Shown piece by piece: positions 10,375 through 24,546 of a stretch of 40,763 nt of DNA. The translations under genes and the position numbers were made by a program. The notes under the pieces were generated by a model that saw only the letters and a list, made by a program, of their open reading frames with translations, made no database searches and was not told the origin of the DNA. The first letter of the stretch is position 1; each line of letters starts with the position of its first letter. This stretch comes from a bacterium (GTDB taxonomy: Bacteria > Patescibacteriota > Microgenomatia > UBA1406 > GWC2-37-13): the NCBI GenBank assembly GCA_021787635.1, contig JAJYLO010000003.1:1-40763 (forward strand), given 5' to 3'.

Positions 10375-10761
10375 GTGGACCAAACCTTAATAAATCAAGG
10401 CGCTTGCGCCAGTAATAATTGTGAAGAGTTTAGAAAATATATTGAGGTTGAGGTTTTAAAAATCATTAAAGATTTATCGGAAAAGGGGACGGTGACACAA
10501 GAAAGGATCCAGGAAATGGCCAAACTGACGCTTGAGTTAATTAAGCCCGGAATGACTTTGGAATCATTGTATGAAAACGCCGTCAAGCTGGATGACCGCT
10601 ATTTGGAACTGGCTCCGGTCGTTTATCACGTCATGAAGCAATATGAGGAAAAATATGAAAAAAAAGCGCTTGGTGTCGTTTCGCAGATGATTAAGCAGGG
10701 GAATTATGACCAGGCGCAGGCAATGGTCAAAAAGGTGTTACAATTTAAGATCGCTAACTAA
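10375..10761 (+). CDS. Hypothetical helical protein (GTG start)
   Basis: 128 aa ORF, -10-like TATATT 6 nt upstream of GTG; no recognised family. Confidence 0.6.
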   Translation: MDQTLINQGACASNNCEEFRKYIEVEVLKIIKDLSEKGTVTQERIQEMAKLTLELIKPGMTLESLYENAVKLDDRYLELAPVVYHVMKQYEEKYEKKALGVVSQMIKQGNYDQAQAMVKKVLQFKIAN

Positions 10762-11684: not shown

Positions 11685-14600
11685 ATGACCTTCGTTCCTG
11701 CCATCACTGAAAATCCTAGTCAAACTCTCGTTCCACCTTCGGAAGAAGAATCGCGAAATCTCGGTCGGAAAATAAAGGACGCTTATACCGGCTTTCTAAA
11801 CAAAGTGACTTTCCCGATAACCAAAAAAGAAATTCAGGTTCTGAATTTGGTGAATAAAGTCGTCTCCACTCTTCCCAATATCCCGATTGCTCCCAATGTT
11901 GTAAAGGCTTATATACCTGCAATGGAGGCACAATTGGCGCTCGCCGGTTTTGATCCGCAAACCGGAGACTACAATAAGCTTCCTTTTAAAAATCGGGCAT
12001 TAAAAGCCGCCCAATTAGCCGGTGAATCTTTGGGTAGGGGATTGCTGGTGGCAGCCGACGCTTTAGCCGGAAATACGGCCGAAACAGCCCTATATGAAGG
12101 TTTAAAAAAAGTAACTTCCGCGACAACACCGGCAGAGTTGGCAAAATTGTGGCCGAAAATTTTAAAAAACATTGCGACTAAAGTAAATAACGACCAGTTT
12201 ACAGCATTAGTAAATTCTATAAGTAGCGCCCAAGAGTTTACCAGCAATCATCTTGTCCTTCAAAATACACTGGAAACAGCGATAAAAAATGCCAACATTG
12301 CTCAAAAAATTGAAGAAAGACTGAAGGCTTTAGAAAATAAACCGGAAGTGCAAAATGTTTCGGAAAAAAAGCAGCAACGCGGAGAAGTCGCTTCACAGGT
12401 GGTAAAAATGTCTGACGCGGTTTGCGATGGGCAAAACGTCAAATTGGGCTACATCGAAAAAGACGAAGACGGAAACGATTTGAATGAAGCAGCGAAAAAA
12501 CAGCAAGCAGCCACTTTAGCCGATAAATTATCAAGTAGTGCCGCTTTCGGCAAAAAAATAACCGGCGATGAAATTTTGGCACTTAGTCAAGATGTAAATG
12601 AGCTGACCGGAGAAAATGGTCCCTTTGCCGGTATTTATCTTGTTTGTTTGAATCGGCCGGATAATCCGCTGGCGAGCGCTGTCGCCAGCGTAGTTTTTCT
12701 CCAGATTTTACGAGATCTTGTTAAATCAAATCCTGATATTTCGCATGAAGAAATAATAAATTCCGGAGTGGCTAATGTTGATGCTGTCATAAAGCAGCTT
12801 TATGCTGGTAAGCTCGACCAGTCTTCAAGTGTAGATTTAGCAGTATCTTTGGTCGACAAATCGGGATATATGACTTCAATGTCAAAAAATAACGCCAAAA
12901 TTGCCGTATTCGGACGATCTGGCAATGTTAAAAACAATATTGCCGGCGGTTTAATCGTAGAAACAAAATTAACTTTTACCGACAAGGTTGTCCTATCCAG
13001 CGGAGACAAAATAAGTGCTTTAACCAATCAACTGATTCAGAAAAAAATAAATCCAAAGGTGAAGGAAATGGTCGATTTTATCGCCTCATCGGGCCAGTCC
13101 GCTGCCGCCGTCGAAGTAACAGAGGCTCAAGCCGCTCAAAACGTTCCGTCGCCAGCACCTGTTGTCAATGGAGAACAAGCAACCAATGGAGAGCAATCCG
13201 AAAGAGTTTACGACGAAAATTATCCTTACTATGCCGATCTGCCTGAAGGATATAGCCTGGATGAAGTCGCTAAACATTTGGTGAGGACAAAAACAGTGGT
13301 TGAGCCCGATGGCAGCCGACGGCAGGTAGAAATTAATTACTTGACTGAAGTTGACGGACTTTTAGAAAAAGCCAAAAATTTATTTGTCCGAAAACCGGAC
13401 GAGTCAGATTATGATTACCACCGCCGTTTGTTGGGCGAACTCGAGCACAGGGTGCGTTTTCCCAACAAATGGAAAAACCCGGCCAAACAGGATGAACTTT
13501 ACCGCGAGACGAAAATCAAAACCGATCAGGAAGTGCTATTAATGGCAATCGAAGCCAAAAGGGCGTTTGCCGACCGGGAAGCCTTACAAGGTACATGGGG
13601 TTTTAATGACGACCTTCATCGCCGGGAAGTACATACGGAAGTTTCTCACAATACCGCCATTGCTAAAGTCAACGATCGTCTGCAAAAGTATTTTAGGGAA
13701 AAAGGGGAGCCGGCCGAACTACCGGAAGATGATTTAGTTTCGTTTACTTTAATTGCCGATATCCTAATGGATGTCAAAGATCCGGCGTTAGGAAATGCGG
13801 GTGCAACATACCGGGAAGCTTTTAAAAAACTGGAAGCCGCTGTCGAAACTAATCCAGCTAGCAACCGAGAATTATTAGAATTAAGGCGTTATTTTTATCG
13901 TAATGCCATTGATGCCCTAGCTTCAAAAGAATTGACGATACCCTTATCACCGGCAGCGACGCCGCAAGAACAAGTGCTGCAGGACATGAGAAGCCTGATC
14001 CAAAATTTGGAATACCGGCTTTCACAAGGCACATCGGCCGACCTTTTAATCGGTGCTTATAAAGGTGTCGTTGGCGGCCTTCAGGAAGGTAAAGGTAGAG
14101 AAAAAAGGAAAACTACTACTGACAAAGTCAAATCTTTACTAGAAAAACATCCGCAGGTAATTGTCGATATGGCATTGAAAGGCGGAGAGTTAATGCAAAG
14201 AAGAGCTCGTTATGAGGGGCCGAAGCAAAAAGGAATTCCTGATAAAATCTACCGTAAAAAGTTTGTTCAAGGACCGGAGGAAGAAGCGCAAGAGACGCAA
14301 AAAATTTCGCCAAAAGGACAACCTTCAACTAAAAAACAGGCTCCGCCTCCCGCACCGGCTGGCGAACAACCACAGGAAGGTAGCTCGGAACCAACAATAC
14401 CTTCAGAAAAACGCAGGATGCCGCCGGCTCCTAGCAGCGGAACCACACAGCCGCCTTCAACACCCGGCCAGCCGCCACAACCGACGCCAGAACCGTTGCC
14501 AACCGAATTACGGGCCGCCGTCGTCTCCGCCCAACAGCGCGTTGACCGTTTTAACGCCCAGGGTGAACTGACGCAAGAGGGAATGCAAGTATTGGAAGAG

Positions 14601-17600
14601 AGGCGCCGTGAAATGGGACGCCTCATTATGAATGAAGACCGGAAAAAATGGGAGGGCCGATTTTCTTTCCTGAAACAATGGATACCTCGTTTTTGGAAAT
14701 ATACTTTGGGAGATACGGCTACCTACTCCAAAGAATCTTCCCACGGTTTGAAATTACTGGCGGTCGCCGGAATCAATGTCACCACTTTACCTTACGATGT
14801 TTTCCAAGAAGTCGATAAGATGGCAAGAGTTAGAGTTGCCGCTAATCGGGCAACGCGTGGTCAACGTTTTACCGGCCGGTTGCGGGATATTGGACATGAA
14901 CTGACTTTTACTACACGCGATTTGCATCGGGAAAGGGTAAAAATCGTTGAAGGCTTGAGGATGGCGGCGGAGGACCCGACTTCACCCCTCAGCCAATCTT
15001 TCATTAATGAATTGCAACAAGCTAATCAACAAAATTTGCTTACACGATTTAATGAAGTTTTAGCCAATGATGTCCGCGCCGGTGAAGCTTTGGCTAGAAG
15101 GATTAATACCAAATTCGGTGACGAATTGATCCATAAAGTTGTCGGAGAAAAGGTGGAGTTGAATGTTAATTTAAATACACCCGAAGGACAAACGGTAACC
15201 AACTTTTTAAAATATCGGGTAATTGAAAAATTATTGGTGGAGGGTATTAGAAATAATGGGCAAATTCCCGATGCCATCTATCTGCAAGTTAACCGTGACT
15301 TGCAGAATTTCTTTTTGAGTAAAGATTTCATATTATGGTTGGATAAATTGTTACCGGCACAACGGCAAATGTTCGAGGAATCACTCTCCACGGTTTCCGA
15401 TATTACGGCTTTGACAAGAGAAACATTGTTACCCCAGGTTACTCAGGCTTGGAAAAGCAGCGAGCGCAATATTGCGCTGGAAGATTATATTCATAACAAT
15501 TTACTATCCAATTTTAATTTATCACTTAACCTAGGGACGCTTGAAGCCGGACAAAAGGGAGTCATCGGCGAGGGAGTCTTAGAAAGGCTGACAGCCCGGG
15601 CCGTGACCAACGAACGCGTGCACAATCTGTATCAGCAGGTTAGAACTTCCACTGCACCGGTATATACCCCACCGGCCCAGCCAGCTCCTGTCCAAACTTT
15701 GGCTCAGCAGCAATACCAAAATTACATGAACGCAGCCGTAAATAGAAGTGCCGTCATCTCAACCATCGCTAATTTGGGAACAAGCAACGTTACATTGGGG
15801 TTGGCTACCGGAATCGGTTTGTATGCCGCTAAAGCGACTTTGGGGAGTGCCGGGTGCTTGGCCGTACCGATTCTCGGCGGATCGATTGTTTCCGGAGCTT
15901 TCCGGGCAGCACAGGAACACCGTCTATTTACCCGCGAATGGGAAGAGCACAATGTCGAACGCGAATTGAACTACAGCTTTCCCCAGGAAGGCCGCCGACG
16001 CCGGGAGATGCAGGGCTTGGAGCTGCATCACCGACGGATGGAGGCAGACCTTACCAGTCCGATGCGCACATTGCTCACTAGAGTGGATAACGGACAAATT
16101 ACTGATCCGGAAATTTTGCAGCTAATGGGCTTGGTAGCCGATACGGAGGCGCGGATGGACTTCAGCGACAACCGTGGCGAAAAAGGACTTTTCAGCGCTA
16201 CCCAACCTCAAACCTATCAGGTGGAAAAAACCAATTTGGAATTCACCAAAGCCCAGGCTAAAGTCGCCTTACGCAATCTTCTGACAAGCAATCCGACGAA
16301 ATTGACCGCTTTGGCCAATCAACTGGGAATTAATTTCCCGACCACCGGCCCGAATGTCGATTTCATTTTAAGCACTCTAAGAGATACTCAAATTGCCAAT
16401 ATCCAGAACGGTACGGCAGCGACAGCCAGCCAGCAATTGGCTTTTGGAAATTTGTCGCTGACCCAAGCCCAATCGGTTGATCATCGGGAAAATGCCTTTC
16501 GCTTTGTCCGGGCAAGAAGGGATGTCGGCGCGTTTGCGACGACGGTGGCGGCCGGCGGCGTCAGTTATCTTTTGAGTGAAGCGGCTTCCGACCTTGCCCA
16601 ACAAGCCGTTACTGCCGCTTCTTCCTGGAATGTTCCGGCTTTAAATTCGGCATTTCAGGCATTGGGCTTGATCCATCAAGAAATCCCAACCGGTAACAAT
16701 ATCGTCCAAATCGACAATCATCTGAAGGTCAATCTTCCCGATAAATGGCATCTGGTCGGACCCGTCGACTTCAAGAATCATCAATTTACGGTCGAGGACG
16801 CGGCCGGCAATCGGTCGATTTTTGGTTTTACGGATGATGCCCAGGGAGGCCACATCCAAAATCTAGTGGGGGGAAATGCGCCGGTAAATTGGATCGAACA
16901 CTCGGGAGCGCAGGGAGTGACGCAACAGCTTAGTAAGACCCCTACCCCTCTTGCTGTACCGACTGGTACACCCTACCAGGAAGTCGCCGGGATCAAGTTC
17001 AGTCTTCCCGCAACTTATCACGTCACCCAGACTGCCGCCGGGGTTGATATAAGTGACGCCAACGGCGCTATTCATCATTTCAACTTATCTTTCGACGCCA
17101 ATCATCATGCCATTCTGACACCCACAGATCAGAATCTTATTCCTCATATTACGGAAACACCCGGTTCTCCCGGATCCACGATAACGAATTCAAATCAAAT
17201 CGAGGCGATTTGGAAAGACCAGGGCCTGGAACAGAAATATCCGGGAGTGAAATTCTGGAATAATCTTACACCCAAATCCGATTATCAGGAACTCCAGGGA
17301 TATGATTTCGTTTTCAAAAATTCCCACGGTCAATATGGCATCGTTTTTGACAGTAGTATAATGGATAAAACTTTGGATCCGACCACTCACCAGTGGATGA
17401 ACGTCAATAATCTTCTGGAACATAGCAAGACCGGCCAGGCCCAGTTTTCTTTTCAGCTCGGCGGCCATCACGACAGCCTGAAAATCGATGCCAATTTCCA
17501 GACTAATAAACTGTCAATCGATCCGTCAAGCGACTCCCCGCTGACAAGAGACGGCGCGGCAATCATGTGGGCCGGTCCGGACGGTACAATGGCCGCCCAT

Positions 17601-20501
17601 GCCTTGACCCAAAAGGAATTTGCCGGCATGCTTCTCAACCAGGGGGAGCTGCAAAGAATTGTCAATGATCCGGCTCTAAATATCCATCCCGGTACCAGCC
17701 CAGACAATGCCGGTTCCTTGGCCAGTGAATGGCTGGAGAATTACCGGCCAAGCTCACACGGCGCCTCGATTTTCAATCTGGCGGATAACGGGAAAAACGG
17801 CAATATTTCTTTCGGATTCACCGACCAAAACGGGCGTTTCAATTATCTCGCCAACATGTCGGCCAAGCATGCGGTGGAAATTGCCACTCCGGCAGGACCA
17901 AACGAAACTATCGCTAACGTCGGCATTAAATCAATTGTCAAAGTAAAGACGGTCCCCACTAACCAGGTCTATATGTCCGAATTGGCGACAGGCGAAGTAT
18001 TTATACCGGTTCTTATTCCTTTATCCCGCCGGCCCCTCGAAGCGCCGAAAGGCAAATTCGACCCCGTCCCACCGCTTCGCGTACCGCCGGGGATTCCCGA
18101 ACCAATAACCTCTTTCCCACCATATATTTCCGGCCCACTTCCGGCAGAAAGAATGCAGCTCTTTGATAAAAACCGGTCAAATACATTAAAGGAAAATCCG
18201 TCGGCAATACTAGATCCAGTTCATGAAGGACAGGAATATTTAAAAAAACAGAATCCCTATTATCGTCAGGAAATTAAACAATTAGCCGCACAGTTTGAAA
18301 GTCCACCATCACCTAATTTAAAAGCCATAGTTTGTATTCCAGTCGCTGGTCACCAGGAAGGTGATAATATTTATAATACTCTTTTAAATTTTACTAATCA
18401 GGATGCACCAAAAGATCAGTACGAAGTCTTCTTATTCGTCAACTATCCAACGACTAATCGTGATGGTAGCCCGGTTACGCCCGATAAAACAATTACGGAA
18501 ATAGAAAGATTTAAAAAAGCCCATCCCGATATGCCCATCAGAATGGTTGTTAAGCAATTACCAAACGATCAGACAAAAATTGGGTTTATTAGAAAATATG
18601 GCGCCGATTTGGCTCTATACAGGAACTTACAAAGAGGAAACCAAGCTAACGATGTTATCCTGATAAGTAATGACGCCGATCAAAAAGGGATAGCGCCAAC
18701 TTATATCAGTAATTTTATCAGCAAATTCGATGTTGAGCCCGAAGTTGACGGATTATTAGGACAATTGGATTGGGATCCGGAAGCGTACGCTCATTATCCG
18801 CTAGTTCATCTTGGAACACGACTTTTCCAGTATTTGGGAATTATCGGTCGGAACAGATCCGGAAGAATGCCATCGAGTGGAGCTAATTTTGCCTACAGGA
18901 GTAGTATTTACGCAGCTATTGGAGGCTATTTGCCACAGTTGGAGGGTGGGGAAGACGTGGCTGTCGGTCAAGCAATTATTGCGGGCAGGCAAAATGTTGA
19001 CAGAATAAAATTTGCCGGAGCAAAAGTATCGCGATTATACACTTCAGCAAGAAGAGCGATTAAATCGCTACGAGAAGGCCTAGCACCTGTTGAACAATGG
19101 AATAAAGGCTTCAGCGCTTTTGATGATGAAGTCCGACGATCACAGCAAGGACAAGTAAAGGATATTAATTTTGATGATCCTAGTCAATTAACGAATTTTA
19201 AAACAGACTTGGAATATATTTTAAACAGAACAATTGATTCATATGAAGCTGGAGAAAAATTAGGTAGAAATGGCAATTACTACAAAACAGCGCTTCGTTG
19301 GCTGGGAATTGAATATCGGGTACAGAATGACAAAATTGTAATCGTTAAAATGGATAGTTTGATACGCGACCTAAAACATTATCAAAAAACAGGTCTTCTG
19401 ATGCGGGAAATCAAATCACACAAAGGAACACCACAGGAATTAGCTCACATGAAGCAGGAGCTGGAAACGCTCGATAAGGATTATCAACAGCAATTAAAAG
19501 AAGATGAGGTAAGAACTAGTGAAGAATTAAAAAAACAGGATAATGAAACGGATAATTTATTACAAAATTTCCGCCAGGAACAACTCAAGCTGGAAGGTGT
19601 ATCATCATTTAAATATACTTTAGCTGAATTGCAGGCCAGTGAAGTTAAAGTTGAAGAAGGCGACTATGTTATTTGTCGGGATAAAATTTTAGGTTCCGGC
19701 CAGAGAGGTCAGATGGTTGCCGGATATAATAAAAAAACAGGGCAGATATGTTCGTTCAAAACTATTCAAAAAGTCAATCAGGAATTTATTGCCAAAGCCA
19801 ATGAATATCCAACAGGTATTCTAGATTTGGAAACATATATTAAAGCAAATTCGACAAATCCGACATTGGGAGTCAACGAAACCATGATCGATAAAGGCAA
19901 TAGCTATATTAAAGTTTATCCTGTTTCCGAATCCGACTTAGATAGATATCTGGAGCAGCAAAAAAACTTATCCCCCGAAAATTCATTAGCGATTATGATT
20001 CATTTGCTTGACGGAGTGAGAGATTTACATAAGATGGGTATAGTTCATCTTGATTTATCTCCAACCAACATTCTTGTTAATGAAAACGGAGTAAAACTTA
20101 TTGATTTTGATGCTGCCAGTATTAAAAATAAAGTTACTAATAAATACAAAAGAGGTTTTGTCGGCGGTTTTAAACATATGCTGCCGCCGGAACTATTTGA
20201 TGAAAATCCGTACATTAACGAAAACGCCGATACTTATGAAGCCGGAATACTTTTTTATAAAATGGTAACTGGAGATTATCCATATCATACTAATAGCGGC
20301 ACAGATCAAGAAAGAGCGGCGCAGCTGAAAGCGGCTCATGAATCAGGAAACTTCACGATTCCTAAAAATTTACCAGATAGCATTAAAAATATCTTAAGAA
20401 AAAGTATTCAACCAGATCAAGGTAAACGATATCAAAATGTTGATGAAATGCTAAAAGATATTATTGAGGCATATTCCGAGATTAAATCAGTTAGAATATA
20501 A
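11685..20501 (+). CDS. Giant multidomain protein (2938 aa): N-terminal region of unknown function, Pro-rich linkers, hydrophobic segments, GT2-like glycosyltransferase domain (~18318-19060) and C-terminal Ser/Thr protein kinase domain (~19663-20500)
   Basis: Single uninterrupted ORF. GT2: AIVCIPVAGHQEGDNIYNTLLNF ... VILISNDADQKG ... GYLPQLEGGEDVAVGQAI. Kinase: ILGSGQRGQMVAGYNKKTGQICSFKTI, HLDLSPTNILVNENGVKLIDFDAAS, PPELF, YEAGILFYKMVTGDYPY, KRYQNVDEML. Hydrophobic segments ~15753-15903 and ~16530-16590. Confidence 0.9.
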   Translation: MTFVPAITENPSQTLVPPSEEESRNLGRKIKDAYTGFLNKVTFPITKKEIQVLNLVNKVVSTLPNIPIAPNVVKAYIPAMEAQLALAGFDPQTGDYNKLPFKNRALKAAQLAGESLGRGLLVAADALAGNTAETALYEGLKKVTSATTPAELAKLWPKILKNIATKVNNDQFTALVNSISSAQEFTSNHLVLQNTLETAIKNANIAQKIEERLKALENKPEVQNVSEKKQQRGEVASQVVKMSDAVCDGQNVKLGYIEKDEDGNDLNEAAKKQQAATLADKLSSSAAFGKKITGDEILALSQDVNELTGENGPFAGIYLVCLNRPDNPLASAVASVVFLQILRDLVKSNPDISHEEIINSGVANVDAVIKQLYAGKLDQSSSVDLAVSLVDKSGYMTSMSKNNAKIAVFGRSGNVKNNIAGGLIVETKLTFTDKVVLSSGDKISALTNQLIQKKINPKVKEMVDFIASSGQSAAAVEVTEAQAAQNVPSPAPVVNGEQATNGEQSERVYDENYPYYADLPEGYSLDEVAKHLVRTKTVVEPDGSRRQVEINYLTEVDGLLEKAKNLFVRKPDESDYDYHRRLLGELEHRVRFPNKWKNPAKQDELYRETKIKTDQEVLLMAIEAKRAFADREALQGTWGFNDDLHRREVHTEVSHNTAIAKVNDRLQKYFREKGEPAELPEDDLVSFTLIADILMDVKDPALGNAGATYREAFKKLEAAVETNPASNRELLELRRYFYRNAIDALASKELTIPLSPAATPQEQVLQDMRSLIQNLEYRLSQGTSADLLIGAYKGVVGGLQEGKGREKRKTTTDKVKSLLEKHPQVIVDMALKGGELMQRRARYEGPKQKGIPDKIYRKKFVQGPEEEAQETQKISPKGQPSTKKQAPPPAPAGEQPQEGSSEPTIPSEKRRMPPAPSSGTTQPPSTPGQPPQPTPEPLPTELRAAVVSAQQRVDRFNAQGELTQEGMQVLEERRREMGRLIMNEDRKKWEGRFSFLKQWIPRFWKYTLGDTATYSKESSHGLKLLAVAGINVTTLPYDVFQEVDKMARVRVAANRATRGQRFTGRLRDIGHELTFTTRDLHRERVKIVEGLRMAAEDPTSPLSQSFINELQQANQQNLLTRFNEVLANDVRAGEALARRINTKFGDELIHKVVGEKVELNVNLNTPEGQTVTNFLKYRVIEKLLVEGIRNNGQIPDAIYLQVNRDLQNFFLSKDFILWLDKLLPAQRQMFEESLSTVSDITALTRETLLPQVTQAWKSSERNIALEDYIHNNLLSNFNLSLNLGTLEAGQKGVIGEGVLERLTARAVTNERVHNLYQQVRTSTAPVYTPPAQPAPVQTLAQQQYQNYMNAAVNRSAVISTIANLGTSNVTLGLATGIGLYAAKATLGSAGCLAVPILGGSIVSGAFRAAQEHRLFTREWEEHNVERELNYSFPQEGRRRREMQGLELHHRRMEADLTSPMRTLLTRVDNGQITDPEILQLMGLVADTEARMDFSDNRGEKGLFSATQPQTYQVEKTNLEFTKAQAKVALRNLLTSNPTKLTALANQLGINFPTTGPNVDFILSTLRDTQIANIQNGTAATASQQLAFGNLSLTQAQSVDHRENAFRFVRARRDVGAFATTVAAGGVSYLLSEAASDLAQQAVTAASSWNVPALNSAFQALGLIHQEIPTGNNIVQIDNHLKVNLPDKWHLVGPVDFKNHQFTVEDAAGNRSIFGFTDDAQGGHIQNLVGGNAPVNWIEHSGAQGVTQQLSKTPTPLAVPTGTPYQEVAGIKFSLPATYHVTQTAAGVDISDANGAIHHFNLSFDANHHAILTPTDQNLIPHITETPGSPGSTITNSNQIEAIWKDQGLEQKYPGVKFWNNLTPKSDYQELQGYDFVFKNSHGQYGIVFDSSIMDKTLDPTTHQWMNVNNLLEHSKTGQAQFSFQLGGHHDSLKIDANFQTNKLSIDPSSDSPLTRDGAAIMWAGPDGTMAAHALTQKEFAGMLLNQGELQRIVNDPALNIHPGTSPDNAGSLASEWLENYRPSSHGASIFNLADNGKNGNISFGFTDQNGRFNYLANMSAKHAVEIATPAGPNETIANVGIKSIVKVKTVPTNQVYMSELATGEVFIPVLIPLSRRPLEAPKGKFDPVPPLRVPPGIPEPITSFPPYISGPLPAERMQLFDKNRSNTLKENPSAILDPVHEGQEYLKKQNPYYRQEIKQLAAQFESPPSPNLKAIVCIPVAGHQEGDNIYNTLLNFTNQDAPKDQYEVFLFVNYPTTNRDGSPVTPDKTITEIERFKKAHPDMPIRMVVKQLPNDQTKIGFIRKYGADLALYRNLQRGNQANDVILISNDADQKGIAPTYISNFISKFDVEPEVDGLLGQLDWDPEAYAHYPLVHLGTRLFQYLGIIGRNRSGRMPSSGANFAYRSSIYAAIGGYLPQLEGGEDVAVGQAIIAGRQNVDRIKFAGAKVSRLYTSARRAIKSLREGLAPVEQWNKGFSAFDDEVRRSQQGQVKDINFDDPSQLTNFKTDLEYILNRTIDSYEAGEKLGRNGNYYKTALRWLGIEYRVQNDKIVIVKMDSLIRDLKHYQKTGLLMREIKSHKGTPQELAHMKQELETLDKDYQQQLKEDEVRTSEELKKQDNETDNLLQNFRQEQLKLEGVSSFKYTLAELQASEVKVEEGDYVICRDKILGSGQRGQMVAGYNKKTGQICSFKTIQKVNQEFIAKANEYPTGILDLETYIKANSTNPTLGVNETMIDKGNSYIKVYPVSESDLDRYLEQQKNLSPENSLAIMIHLLDGVRDLHKMGIVHLDLSPTNILVNENGVKLIDFDAASIKNKVTNKYKRGFVGGFKHMLPPELFDENPYINENADTYEAGILFYKMVTGDYPYHTNSGTDQERAAQLKAAHESGNFTIPKNLPDSIKNILRKSIQPDQGKRYQNVDEMLKDIIEAYSEIKSVRI
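14300..14510 (+). other. Proline-rich low-complexity linker within giant protein
   Basis: KKQAPPPAPAGEQPQEGSSEPTIPSEKRRMPPAPSSGTTQPPSTPGQPPQPTPEPLPTE. Confidence 0.85.
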
Positions 20502-20559: not shown

Positions 20560-21186
20560 ATGGGTAAAGAACAACCTTCAGAAGTATTAAAATTCCAGAA
20601 AATATTAACCGAAATGACTGCGGCACTTAAAGCGGGCAAACCATTTAATGCGTATTTAACTGCCGATGATTTTAAAACATTGGTTTTAGGCGGATTAGTA
20701 ACGCAAGCTGAAGAAATTGAAGCATTAGGAATTAAATTGTCGCTTAATCACGGTAATCTATCAGTCGTAATTAAGAAAAATACTGATGTAACAGTTCAAG
20801 CTAAAGGTTTGGTACAAAGGCGAATAGAAAAAGAGGTTTTAGGAAAAAAAATTAGTGCTTGGAGTCCAGGGTTAGGTGTGAATTTAGCCGTCAAGGCTAG
20901 AAATAGCACTTCTCAACCTAATAGAATCACTGTTGATAAGGGAAATGTGCATATTAATTTCGATAAACCGCTAGGATTTGATGCAGAAAACCATTTTAAC
21001 GTAGATACTTCCCATCTTGAAAACTCATTAGAGGGATTTGGACTTTTTAGATTGATTAGAACTGGATTAAAAAAAGAAATGGCCAAGCATGATGTCGATA
21101 TAACTTCACTCGGACTGAGAATAAGGTTTTCACAAGATATGATACATATGAATGTTGGCGGTAAAACCATTAAAAAACTAAGTTGA
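20560..21186 (+). CDS. Hypothetical protein, shares a domain-like pattern with C-terminus of the 945-aa protein
   Basis: 208 aa ORF; C-terminal LGLRIRFSQDMIHMNVGGKTIKK resembles LKIQFTPDNKTLISVKGKKK of the 21709-24546 protein. Confidence 0.65.
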   Translation: MGKEQPSEVLKFQKILTEMTAALKAGKPFNAYLTADDFKTLVLGGLVTQAEEIEALGIKLSLNHGNLSVVIKKNTDVTVQAKGLVQRRIEKEVLGKKISAWSPGLGVNLAVKARNSTSQPNRITVDKGNVHINFDKPLGFDAENHFNVDTSHLENSLEGFGLFRLIRTGLKKEMAKHDVDITSLGLRIRFSQDMIHMNVGGKTIKKLS

Positions 21187-21217: not shown

Positions 21218-21706
21218 ATGGCAGATCAAGATTTGACGGATGTGATGAATAGGATTAAGTCGGTAGCGCAAATCGGTGCCATTAGCAGTGATACGGAAGA
21301 GCACAAACAGTCTTACGAAGCATTCATCGATAAATTAATAGAGGAACGGGGCTTCCCCGATCTGACGCCTGAAGTCAAAGAGGAGCTGAAAAAAGATCTG
21401 GTCACCCGGCTGGACAGCTTTATCGCGGCCAAAGTTATTGCCGCCTTATCCGATGCCGATGTTTTGGCTTTCGAAAAAATGCTCAAGGACAATAAGCCGT
21501 CTGCCGAATTGCAGCAATTTTCCATCGACCACATCGCCAACTTTACCGATTTTCTGACTAATACGCTTCTCGAATTCCGGGGAGTTTATTTGGGGCTAAT
21601 AAGCGTCCCGGTTTCTTTGGACGTCAATCTCACTGAGACTTTGAACCGGTCAAAAATCACCCGCGCCATGCCACCCGCACCAGTCTCTCCTGCAAAAAGT
21701 AATTAA
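21218..21706 (+). CDS. Hypothetical helical protein (DUF5663-like, tentative)
   Basis: 162 aa; FIDKLIEERGFPDLTPEVKEELKKDLVTRLDSFIAAKVIAALSDADVLAFEKML pattern. Confidence 0.6.
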   Translation: MADQDLTDVMNRIKSVAQIGAISSDTEEHKQSYEAFIDKLIEERGFPDLTPEVKEELKKDLVTRLDSFIAAKVIAALSDADVLAFEKMLKDNKPSAELQQFSIDHIANFTDFLTNTLLEFRGVYLGLISVPVSLDVNLTETLNRSKITRAMPPAPVSPAKSN

Positions 21707-21708
21707 TA

Positions 21709-24546
21709 TCATTTTTTCTTCCCTTTAACGCTAATGAGTGTTTTGTTGTCGGGAGTGAATTGGATCTTCAAATCCTCAATCACCAAGCCGGATTTCTTCT
21801 TACTAAGTTCCTGGCTTATATATTGCGCCAAAGCTTCGTTGATCGGTAAAGCAGCCATGGTATTACTGGCACTTTCCTGGACATTTATACCGCCGACAAC
21901 CGGCGGCTCGATTTTCACACTGTTGAAAACCGTATTGCCGGTTGGGGAGTTAGCGGCGACAAAATCAATCGTTAATTTCGGTTGAAAAGGAATCCCGATA
22001 TCGACGACGACATGACCTTTAGCTCGTGATGAAGCGATTTCCAATGTAGGATTACCGGCTGCTTTCAAATGTAAAAAGTTAAGAAGCATGTTGCTACCTT
22101 TTTCTTTGATTTTCTTTTCCAAGATGGGTAAAAAGGCGGGGATAATGACAGCTGATTCGTCACTTTTCAAGACCATATTTGTCGTCTCCGCTTTGGCTAA
22201 ACCGGCCGATGATTGGCTGATGATTTCATCCAGGCTATGGACTTCGGTCGCCGCCGGCGGCGTCTCCGGTTTGGCCGGTTCGGGTTTGGAGGGCGTCTGG
22301 TTACTGGACGCTTCGCCGACTATCCGCGGATCCTTGGTCCGCAAGTAATCCCGTATTCCCTGTGGAAGCGACAAATAGGTCAAGTGAGCTGGATTTTCGC
22401 CCGTCTTGGTCGTACCTTCGGCGCTTTCCACTGTTGTCAATAAGTTCAGGATTTCCTGTTTTTGTGCTTCGGTTAAATTATTATGAATATAAGAACGGGT
22501 CAATGAATAGGTAAGTCCCCGGCCTCCATGCGCGGCTTCATGCGATTCATATTCCATCAATGCATCAACGATTGATAGATAATGCGGACGGAAAGTTTTT
22601 GCAATTGCTTTACCATTCGGTTCCTGCTCGGTATGGCGTCCGGCTAAATCTGAGGCCAAATGGCCGAACCCTGTCCTAGTAAAATAGGCATTAACAAATT
22701 TGGTAAAGGCTGTATCAAAGCTAATATTTTGTTCTTCCATCATTTGGGTAATCAAATCATGAAGTACGGCTCTTTCTGCGCGATAAGCATCGACATCTAG
22801 TTTTGAATTCATACTCTGCGCCCATTGCTTAGTCAATTCAACAGTAGTGGCTTCCATTAAACCTCTACCGCGTTCTTTGATTATTATCTGCCCTTCATCC
22901 GTAAGCCCGACCGGTTTGGTCATCCAAGGCCCTAATTTTCCCATCTGGACTTTTTCTTTTTTGCCTGAAGGTTGTTCCTGCGCGTACCAAAATGCCAAAT
23001 CGGCAGATAAATGAGTTGTTTCATGTGGTCTGATTTCTTCAAAAACCCTGATCATTAAATTTCTAAAACCTTCGGGAGTAAGGTCCTCCCAATTTTGAGC
23101 TAAACTTTTGGCGTGATCTCTTATTACTCCCATATCCATAAATATTGCCGGAATTGTAGGAATTACAAAAGCTAAAGCGCCCCGATTAGGATCATAATAT
23201 TCGGCAGTTTTTCCCCAAATAGGCAAAATAGTAATATGACCAATATCGGGCATTTTAATATGGTATTTATTTTCGACGAAAGTCCGGTATCCTGCCATCG
23301 CTGAATTTAACACACCGATTAACCGCTCGTTATCCAGCCCAATTTTAGCCAACTGATTTTTTAGCTGGTTATTTTCTGACTGTATTTGTCCGGCTAAATC
23401 AATTTCACTTATAGATGCATATTGATTATGACCGGTTCTGGCATCACGCAGTTTTAATTTATGAGCTATTGCCGCGGGATTTACCATTTCCTCAACCAGA
23501 TTGGCTTCTGGAAATTGTCTGACTTCGCTGGGATTCTCCGGGTTGGGTTTGGCCTTTTCGTATGACCATTCGTGCCCGGTCGGCAGCGGTTTGGATTTTT
23601 CCGGCTCGGGCCACTCGCGCGGTTCCGGCCATTCCTCGGGATTATCGCCGTTATCACCGTCCGGAGGTTGCGGACCGGGAGCGGACGAAGTCGCTTCTTT
23701 ATATTTTCCGGCACCATTTAGCGCTTCCAGAAGTTCGACTTCCCTTGATCTTAGATTATTGCCCCGGATTTTTTCTTCCGCCCCGACTTTCTCTTTCGCG
23801 ACGACCGAATCCAATAGTTCTTGGCGTTTATGCGGGTCAAAATCCTTGATCTCCACATCCATTAACTGAGCAAGGATTTCGTCGGAATAATTATTGCCGA
23901 AAATTGAGCTAAAATTCTGAATTACGCTCAAATCTTTTTGCAGTTTGGTATGTTTGAAAGAAACCGTTTCCTTACCGTCCGCGCCTTGGGTGACTACGGC
24001 GTAATCTGCCACCAAGTCGCTAATATATTTGACGACGGAAGAAGGAAGGTAGGTCGTCTTGCCGTCCCGCGTGATCGGTGTCAACGAACTGTCGAGAAAA
24101 TACCGCTGATAAAGCTTTTCCGCTTCGGCCGCATCGAAATTTTTCCAGTTTATCGCCCCCTGGCAGATATTGGATTGGGAAAAAAGATCGCGGTAACTCG
24201 TATCATTTTTGTCGTTGTAGATTTCGACTACCTCTTTGAGCCAGGTGGCTTTTTGGGCGGTAGCGGTTTTCAAACTGTCATCCTTGGCCGCTCGTGCTTC
24301 CCAGTGTTTTATTCTTTCATCCGTGGACAATTTTGCCAACAGTTCGTAAGTTGGTTTGCACTTTCTGTCGGGATCGGTGATTAGTTTCTCGATTTCGGAT
24401 TTTGCGTCAGGAAGAGAATAGGTATGATCAAGAACTTGATTTCCGGCTAAAAGTCTGACCTGCAAGCCAACTTGCTCCGGATTGTAAGTTAATTTTTCCT
24501 TGGCCGGCAAATTTTCCCTTATCGGATTTATGACAGTTTCCGCCAT
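21709..24546 (-). CDS. Large protein with gluzincin-like HExxH motifs (putative metallopeptidase)
   Basis: 945 aa; RPHETTHLSADLAFWY (HETTH at 23011-23025) followed by RGLMEATTVELTKQWA (candidate third ligand Glu); second HEAAH (22528-22542). Acidic/Pro-rich linker PGPQPPDGDNGDNPEEWPEPREWPEPEKSKPLP. Confidence 0.7.
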   Translation of the reverse strand: MAETVINPIRENLPAKEKLTYNPEQVGLQVRLLAGNQVLDHTYSLPDAKSEIEKLITDPDRKCKPTYELLAKLSTDERIKHWEARAAKDDSLKTATAQKATWLKEVVEIYNDKNDTSYRDLFSQSNICQGAINWKNFDAAEAEKLYQRYFLDSSLTPITRDGKTTYLPSSVVKYISDLVADYAVVTQGADGKETVSFKHTKLQKDLSVIQNFSSIFGNNYSDEILAQLMDVEIKDFDPHKRQELLDSVVAKEKVGAEEKIRGNNLRSREVELLEALNGAGKYKEATSSAPGPQPPDGDNGDNPEEWPEPREWPEPEKSKPLPTGHEWSYEKAKPNPENPSEVRQFPEANLVEEMVNPAAIAHKLKLRDARTGHNQYASISEIDLAGQIQSENNQLKNQLAKIGLDNERLIGVLNSAMAGYRTFVENKYHIKMPDIGHITILPIWGKTAEYYDPNRGALAFVIPTIPAIFMDMGVIRDHAKSLAQNWEDLTPEGFRNLMIRVFEEIRPHETTHLSADLAFWYAQEQPSGKKEKVQMGKLGPWMTKPVGLTDEGQIIIKERGRGLMEATTVELTKQWAQSMNSKLDVDAYRAERAVLHDLITQMMEEQNISFDTAFTKFVNAYFTRTGFGHLASDLAGRHTEQEPNGKAIAKTFRPHYLSIVDALMEYESHEAAHGGRGLTYSLTRSYIHNNLTEAQKQEILNLLTTVESAEGTTKTGENPAHLTYLSLPQGIRDYLRTKDPRIVGEASSNQTPSKPEPAKPETPPAATEVHSLDEIISQSSAGLAKAETTNMVLKSDESAVIIPAFLPILEKKIKEKGSNMLLNFLHLKAAGNPTLEIASSRAKGHVVVDIGIPFQPKLTIDFVAANSPTGNTVFNSVKIEPPVVGGINVQESASNTMAALPINEALAQYISQELSKKKSGLVIEDLKIQFTPDNKTLISVKGKKK

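Follow-up and report, generated by a model that had tools for sequence, protein, structure and literature searches.

A giant patescibacterial protein in which a GT2-like glycosyltransferase and a Hanks-type kinase form an apparently exchangeable head on a conserved scaffold

The giant gene and its neighbourhood

The window analysed here is one whole contig (C14) of 40,763 nucleotides, from an 890-kb CPR/Patescibacteria genome in 71 contigs. It contains an ORF on the forward strand which starts with ATG, has no internal stop and encodes 2938 aa (Table 1); this single frame is exactly as a previous sequence-only reading had delimited it. In Pfam the kinase is the sole confident match on the protein. 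The large N-terminal region, which had been read as belonging to no recognised family, indeed has none in Pfam or NCBIfam, and in spite of this is homologous to giant proteins of related genomes. The giants of these relatives are ORFs from six-frame translation of metagenome-derived contigs, and several of these contigs stop within the gene. A viral origin of the giant was rejected, no relative being found in the IMG/VR contigs.

Table 1. Features of the giant gene and of the adjacent ORFs, in positions of the window
Feature	Residues	Coordinates	Strand	Basis or remark
128-aa ORF		10375..10761	+	kept close to the giant gene at 8 loci
305-aa ORF, C-terminal hydrophobic segment		10706..11623	+	weak homologue in G025
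Giant gene: scaffold, hinge, GT2-like domain, kinase	2938 aa	11685..20501	+	
N-terminal domain	241-493	12405..13163	+	common to giants of G015, G004, G071
Scaffold region	511-888	13215..14348	+	conserved in G007, G015, G004
Pro-rich linker	~860-945	14262..14519	+	sequence
Scaffold core, containing the borderline hairpin	945-1640	14517..16604	+	conserved in G007, G015
Hydrophobic hairpin, borderline	1356-1402	15750..15890	+	hydrophobicity
Third hydrophobic segment, weak	1614-1632	16524..16580	+	hydrophobicity
Pre-hinge region, strand-rich look by sequence	~1660-2100	16662..17984	+	AlphaFold pLDDT 51
Pro-rich hinge PVLIPLSRRPLE, proposed exchange point	2108-2119	18006..18041	+	same pattern precedes GT2 and GT9 heads
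GT2-like GT-A domain	2165-2470	18177..19094	+	alignment, AlphaFold, Foldseek
NDAD, DxD metal/nucleotide motif	2329-2332	18669..18680	+	alignment
ED, candidate catalytic base motif	2423-2424	18951..18956	+	alignment
GT-kinase linker, charged and coiled-coil-like	~2575-2645	19407..19619	+	sequence; helix ends AlphaFold model
Hanks-type kinase	2660-2931	19662..20477	+	Pfam, PDB sequence matches, alignment
K2692	2692	19758..19760	+	alignment; invariant in 8 related kinases
D2790 of HxD	2790	20052..20054	+	alignment; invariant in 8 related kinases
N2795	2795	20067..20069	+	alignment; invariant in 8 related kinases
D2807 of DFD (DFG position)	2807	20103..20105	+	alignment; invariant in 8 related kinases
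208-aa ORF, seems to travel with the head		20560..21186	+	low GC3; in G025 a homologue immediately follows the GT2-APH gene
DUF5663-like gene		21218..21706	+	about 24 distinct loci have a homologue next to the giant gene

One ORF separates the giant gene from the DUF5663-like gene in the window. The latter matches DUF5663 (PF18908) weakly (E=0.003), and its homologue in genome G219 scores above the cut-off. The Pfam model is insensitive (3 of 113 genomes) and prevalence was taken instead from a purpose-built alignment, by which 20 of 141 class genomes have the gene. Among open-licence PMC papers there was no mention of DUF5663. A small membrane-protein-like ORF adjoins the DUF5663-like gene at four other loci (L082 14921-15688, L101 4954-5763, L102 3060-3923 and L138 8189-8908); those of L101, L102 and L138, which were read, have a HELAH motif, and that of L082 has no Pfam match. 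In the window, a 945-aa ORF (21709-24546, reverse strand) has an HETTH metallopeptidase-like motif and no Pfam match. The stretch RPHETTHLSSDLAFW is common to this ORF and to a 1477-aa ORF near the DUF5663-like gene of G007; the 1477-aa ORF may also have a C-terminal domain in common with the 208-aa ORF.

In G110 and G125 a LytR-CpsA-Psr gene comes immediately after the scaffold/head gene, and in Daviesbacteria one is the third gene downstream. The window itself contains no capsule or teichoic-acid operon, and the LytR-CpsA-Psr gene of the giant's own genome is on another contig. The Daviesbacteria locus (L101 12331-19330) carries downstream of its GT2-kinase giant a row of paralogous ORFs, including a second GT2-like protein besides the LytR-CpsA-Psr gene.

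The GT2-like and kinase domains

The motifs quoted for the GT2-like domain in the sequence-only reading are all present, with CIPVAGHQEG at residues 2217-2226, SNDADQKG at 2328-2335 and GGEDVAVG at 2421-2428. Both Asp residues of NDAD, which corresponds to the DxD motif, are invariant across the 14 related rows of the alignment, as is the Asp of the ED-type motif GGED (2421-2424). The domain is named GT2-like because the giant itself does not reach the curated cut-off of the Pfam GT2 models; the best matches among its relatives in the alignment were PF13641 (9e-6) and PF13632 (6e-5), and a profile built from five relatives also matched ordinary GT2-sized enzymes, with weak E-values. An AlphaFold2 model of the GT region, made with the 14-row alignment, had a pLDDT of 87 and a pTM of 0.83. 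The Foldseek matches listed against the PDB were GT2/GT-A enzymes at a probability of 1.00, namely an archaeal mannosyltransferase, hyaluronan synthases, RmlT, TarS, TarP and a chondroitin polymerase. The TM scores, taken over the entire 437-residue query, are modest (0.3-0.4), and the claim is therefore restricted to a GT-A fold and extends to no particular GT2 subfamily; as a prediction from the model, this GT2-like GT-A fold is well supported. The same genome encodes one further relative of the GT domain, as a stand-alone protein (G000:C70 5061-6602, reverse strand, L008, 514 aa).

PF00069 matches residues 2666-2922 (E=1.2e-31, 110.5 bits against a cut-off of 31.7), which makes the Hanks-type family assignment well supported, and the 890-kb genome has no other Pkinase match. 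The kinases of PknB/StkP type are the closest by sequence and include the nearest solved structures. In distinction to them the giant reads HLDLSPTN and DFD instead of HRDLKxxN and DFG and is devoid of PASTA domains, scoring 93 bits, from the kinase part only, against the PknB_PASTA cut-off of 450. The catalytic Lys, the Asp of HxD, the Asn and the Asp at the DFG position are all present, and the full kinase domain previously read at this place appears intact. The Gly-rich loop is kept in the giant, in Daviesbacteria and in Levyibacteriota, and decayed in others. To judge from its residues, the kinase is probably an active variant.

Conservation of the fusion

A search for proteins with both GT2 and Pkinase domains in CPR genomes, proposed in the sequence-only reading, yielded full-length relatives in several candidate phyla. 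In one scan of GTDB species genomes these were found in Daviesbacteria (56% identity to the giant over 770 aa), Levyibacteriota (54%), Peribacteria, Uhrbacteria, Magasanikbacteria and the unclassified bacterium SKS1.bin72. In Nomurabacteria the kinase has its own gene, which follows that of a 1580-aa GT2 giant. Fused or as adjacent genes, the pairing occurs in seven further lineages, and the fusion is well supported.

A misassembly at 19.06-19.66 kb, the GT-kinase junction, had been raised as a possible origin of the combination. An assembly artefact joining unrelated genes would fit the abrupt change of composition within the ORF described below, but the order GT2-linker-kinase is collinear in independent assemblies of several candidate phyla, which are at most 56% identical to the giant over 770 aa and have the same kind of hinge. 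As these relatives span the junction, misassembly at this point was rejected, and an artefact is improbable in the extreme.

Other giants carry the GT2 domain and no kinase. In a sample of the class, 26 of 382 genomes matched the GT profile at 1e-9, the strong matches being mostly in ORFs of 1300-2900 aa, and 11 of 381 genomes in a sample of the phylum matched a stricter GT profile. The well-supported branches of the GT tree require two or more changes by gain or loss of the kinase.

Because one polypeptide joins both domains and their pairing is conserved, the GT and kinase activities are probably coupled. The earlier proposal of a membrane-linked enzyme coupling glycan transfer and phosphorylation stands as far as a GT-A domain and a kinase in one conserved polypeptide are concerned; its membrane linkage is left at a suggestion. 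The best 19-residue window of the giant reaches 1.64 on the Kyte-Doolittle scale, which is borderline, and such segments suggest that the protein may be attached to a membrane.

The scaffold and its interchangeable heads

The first ~2100 residues, here called the scaffold, have homologues in giants from the genome family to which the organism belongs. Identity is 48% to G007 over residues 503-2016, where the G007 contig stops, and 30% to G015 over residues 272-2154. Remoter giants have core stretches and the Pro-rich hinge in common with the scaffold. The AlphaFold model of the pre-hinge region was unusable at its low pLDDT. The idea, formed by eye, that the N-terminal domain is a degenerate PP2C in a kinase-phosphatase pair was dropped after a profile comparison with hhalign against nine PP2C-like proteins of the class (probability 0.5%, E=0.12).

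The heads found after the Pro-rich hinge are GT2 with Hanks kinase, GT2 with APH kinase, GT2 alone, degenerate GT2, and GT9. The string PPIIPIPFAPRHPLE of the hinge is identical in L102 (GT2 and kinase), L083 (GT2; the same locus as L113) and L138 (GT9 head). The APH kinase of G025 lies behind GT2, in the same position as the Hanks kinase (PF01636, E=2.5e-31), and GT9 heads are carried on the scaffolds of G066 (PF01075, 1.6e-5) and G110 (PF01075, 2.3e-8). The degenerate GT2 is present in five related genomes, with ENSTG replacing NDAD in three. Since GT is kept in giants without kinase and one group is devoid of the GT catalytic motifs, catalysis is not always needed. By sequence comparison the enzymes thus appear as a detachable head, and the other ~2100 residues as a scaffold that bears different heads in relatives.

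Additional domains and genes were noted around these heads. In five related giants (L087 and L089-L092) both DxD and ED of the GT2-like domain are degraded, and a pseudo-enzyme or structural role is possible. An extra C-terminal domain follows the GT2 or kinase heads at L102 10469-11125, L086 7661-8197 and L141 8890-9591; it is 47-51% identical among them, contains WQEVxYGP, DFKWLL, RRPGTN and PGYSEDEA, and had no match in the PDB. Its identity as a lyase (HopA1/SpvC), suggested by motifs seen by eye, had no database support, and a methyltransferase seen by eye at the end of the G025 protein, with neither Pfam nor PDB support, is not claimed. The G066 cluster (L099 448-15794) encodes the GT9-headed giant, a second GT9-like ORF, an ORF which by motif resembles an HldE nucleotidyltransferase, and a detached GT2 relative; a HipA/Fam20-like kinase and the HldE-like nucleotidyltransferase were set aside in this cluster, as both were motif readings with no family match. 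In G114 (L142 9283-17498) the giant adjoins an ORF with YheC/D-type ATP-grasp (1e-29) and GNAT domains, possibly another head chemistry.

Module exchange is well supported in these proteins, and the head of the giant looks horizontally exchanged because the nearest relatives of head and scaffold conflict and because third-position GC breaks at the start of the GT. The head (residues 2078-2934) is 51.5% identical to Daviesbacteria L101, whereas BLAST of residues 1-2077 against the L101 scaffold gave no match; the GT of G015 is only 32% identical to that of the giant, though the G015 scaffold is clearly related. In the GT tree the giant clusters with Daviesbacteria and Levyibacteriota (support 99/99). 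GC3 falls from 0.457 to 0.293 within the giant. A single change point fits best at codon 2164, immediately ahead of the start of GT homology; a scan restricted to codons 1401-2938 placed it at 2138 (interval 2128-2174), and of 500 block shuffles none gave a likelihood gain as large as the one observed. A shift in composition by itself might arise in some other way; the case for exchange rests on its agreement with homology. The exchange probably took in the stretch from about 18.1 to 21.2 kb, because the 208-aa ORF also has a low GC3 (0.24, against 0.54 in the DUF5663-like gene) and has a homologue behind the GT2-APH gene of G025.

Comparison with known systems

The combination of GT and kinase had been thought to be without standard precedent, a view that two described proteins contradict. 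ORF6 of Klebsiella pneumoniae O7 combines GT2 modules, a coiled coil, a methyltransferase and an APH-like kinase in one chain, and its kinase phosphorylates the glycan end (PMC11231755). WbdD of E. coli O9a has a eukaryote-like glycan kinase, a methyltransferase and a coiled coil, and recruits its polymerase (PMC3482155). The giant resembles O7 ORF6 in carrying GT2 and a kinase-fold phosphotransferase in the same polypeptide, and its G025 relative likewise pairs GT2 with an APH kinase. It differs in that its kinase is of Hanks type and lies behind the GT, in its huge unrelated scaffold and in the methyltransferase, for which Pfam and NCBIfam gave no match in the giant; the two are likened by parts. 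With WbdD it has in common a eukaryote-like kinase domain in a putative glycan-assembly protein with a coiled coil and a tie to a polymerase, but WbdD has a methyltransferase, recruits a separate GT and is absent among the sequence matches listed for the giant. By analogy the giant may work like these two proteins in logic; membership in their kind is not claimed. The GT2 wall-teichoic-acid glycosyltransferases TarS, TarP and RmlT share its GT-A fold and are among the top structural matches, but are 12-17% identical to its GT and themselves lack both kinase and scaffold.

Possible function of the giant

The explanation which we tentatively prefer, at not quite an even chance, is that the giant is an envelope-glycan enzyme on a scaffold, whose kinase phosphorylates the glycan as in O7 ORF6 and WbdD. 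The ~2100-residue scaffold would present the two-enzyme head behind the Pro-rich hinge. With a nucleotide sugar as donor, the GT-A domain would add a sugar to an envelope glycan that is probably lipid-linked and at the cytoplasmic face; the kinase would phosphorylate the same glycan, and the phosphate would serve either as a decoration or as a terminal cap that halts elongation. A LytR-CpsA-Psr enzyme would next attach the completed polymer to the cell wall, and by trading heads at the hinge lineages could alter the surface glycan and leave the scaffold unaltered. We infer the substrates, the order of action, the membrane location and the link to cell-wall attachment. Phosphorylation of a glycan is suggested because GT2 pairs convergently with Hanks and APH kinases at the same position of the chain, together with the two literature precedents; a glycopolymer is suggested by the wall-teichoic-acid transferases among the PDB matches, and a cell-wall glycan by the LytR-CpsA-Psr genes downstream in G110, G125 and Daviesbacteria. 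The explanation is weakened by the closeness of the kinase to protein kinases of StkP/PknB type and to no known glycan kinase, by the missing methyltransferase, by the genomic setting in the window described above, and by those relatives which lack the kinase or the GT catalytic motifs.

Its main and serious rival, though itself doubtful, is a regulatory Ser/Thr protein kinase that would switch glycan synthesis on or off by phosphorylating the GT to which it is fused, the scaffold, or a neighbouring product, for instance the DUF5663-like protein. Such a role agrees with the nearest solved structures, with the invariance of the catalytic K, D, N and D in eight relatives, with the separate adjacent kinase gene of Nomurabacteria and with the control of capsule synthesis by protein kinases in Staphylococcus aureus (PMC6441080). 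On the other hand, the Lys of HRDLKxxN and the Gly of DFG are both lost, and no canonical PP2C partner was found in the giant's genome. The usual substrates of APH enzymes are small molecules or glycans, and an APH-type phosphotransferase in the same position in G025 argues against regulation of proteins.

The target could also be protein for both enzymes, the GT glycosylating surface or secreted proteins and the kinase phosphorylating the sugar or the same proteins. Some heptosyltransferases glycosylate proteins, and GT9 heads do occur in relatives; the LytR-CpsA-Psr neighbours and the structural likeness to teichoic-acid and polysaccharide enzymes favour glycopolymers instead, and we consider protein modification improbable. 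Slightly more so is an effector role, in which the giant would be delivered or exposed at the surface and its variable heads would work on, or inside, the cell of a host or competitor, in the style of polymorphic C-terminal effectors. Swappable C-terminal enzyme heads on a long conserved scaffold would be expected of it, and a role in host attachment has been proposed for giant surface proteins of a CPR predator (PMC8080830). GT and kinase require nucleotide donors, however, neither a delivery domain nor an immunity gene was recognised, and the relatives adjoin genes of cell-wall assembly rather than of delivery.

CPR/Patescibacteria are mostly epibionts whose surface chemistry is largely unknown. 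It is conceivable, if rather doubtful, that they vary a surface glycan by head swaps at a fixed Pro-rich hinge on one giant scaffold, that is by domain exchange inside one gene and not by exchange of whole gene clusters, and that a Hanks-type kinase here acts on sugar and not on protein. If the proposal is true, a conserved scaffold with swappable glycan-enzyme heads would explain one class of CPR giant proteins, would allow a direct test of glycan kinase activity in a Hanks-type kinase, would give DUF5663 a context, and would provide a sequence handle on surface variation among host-attached lineages.
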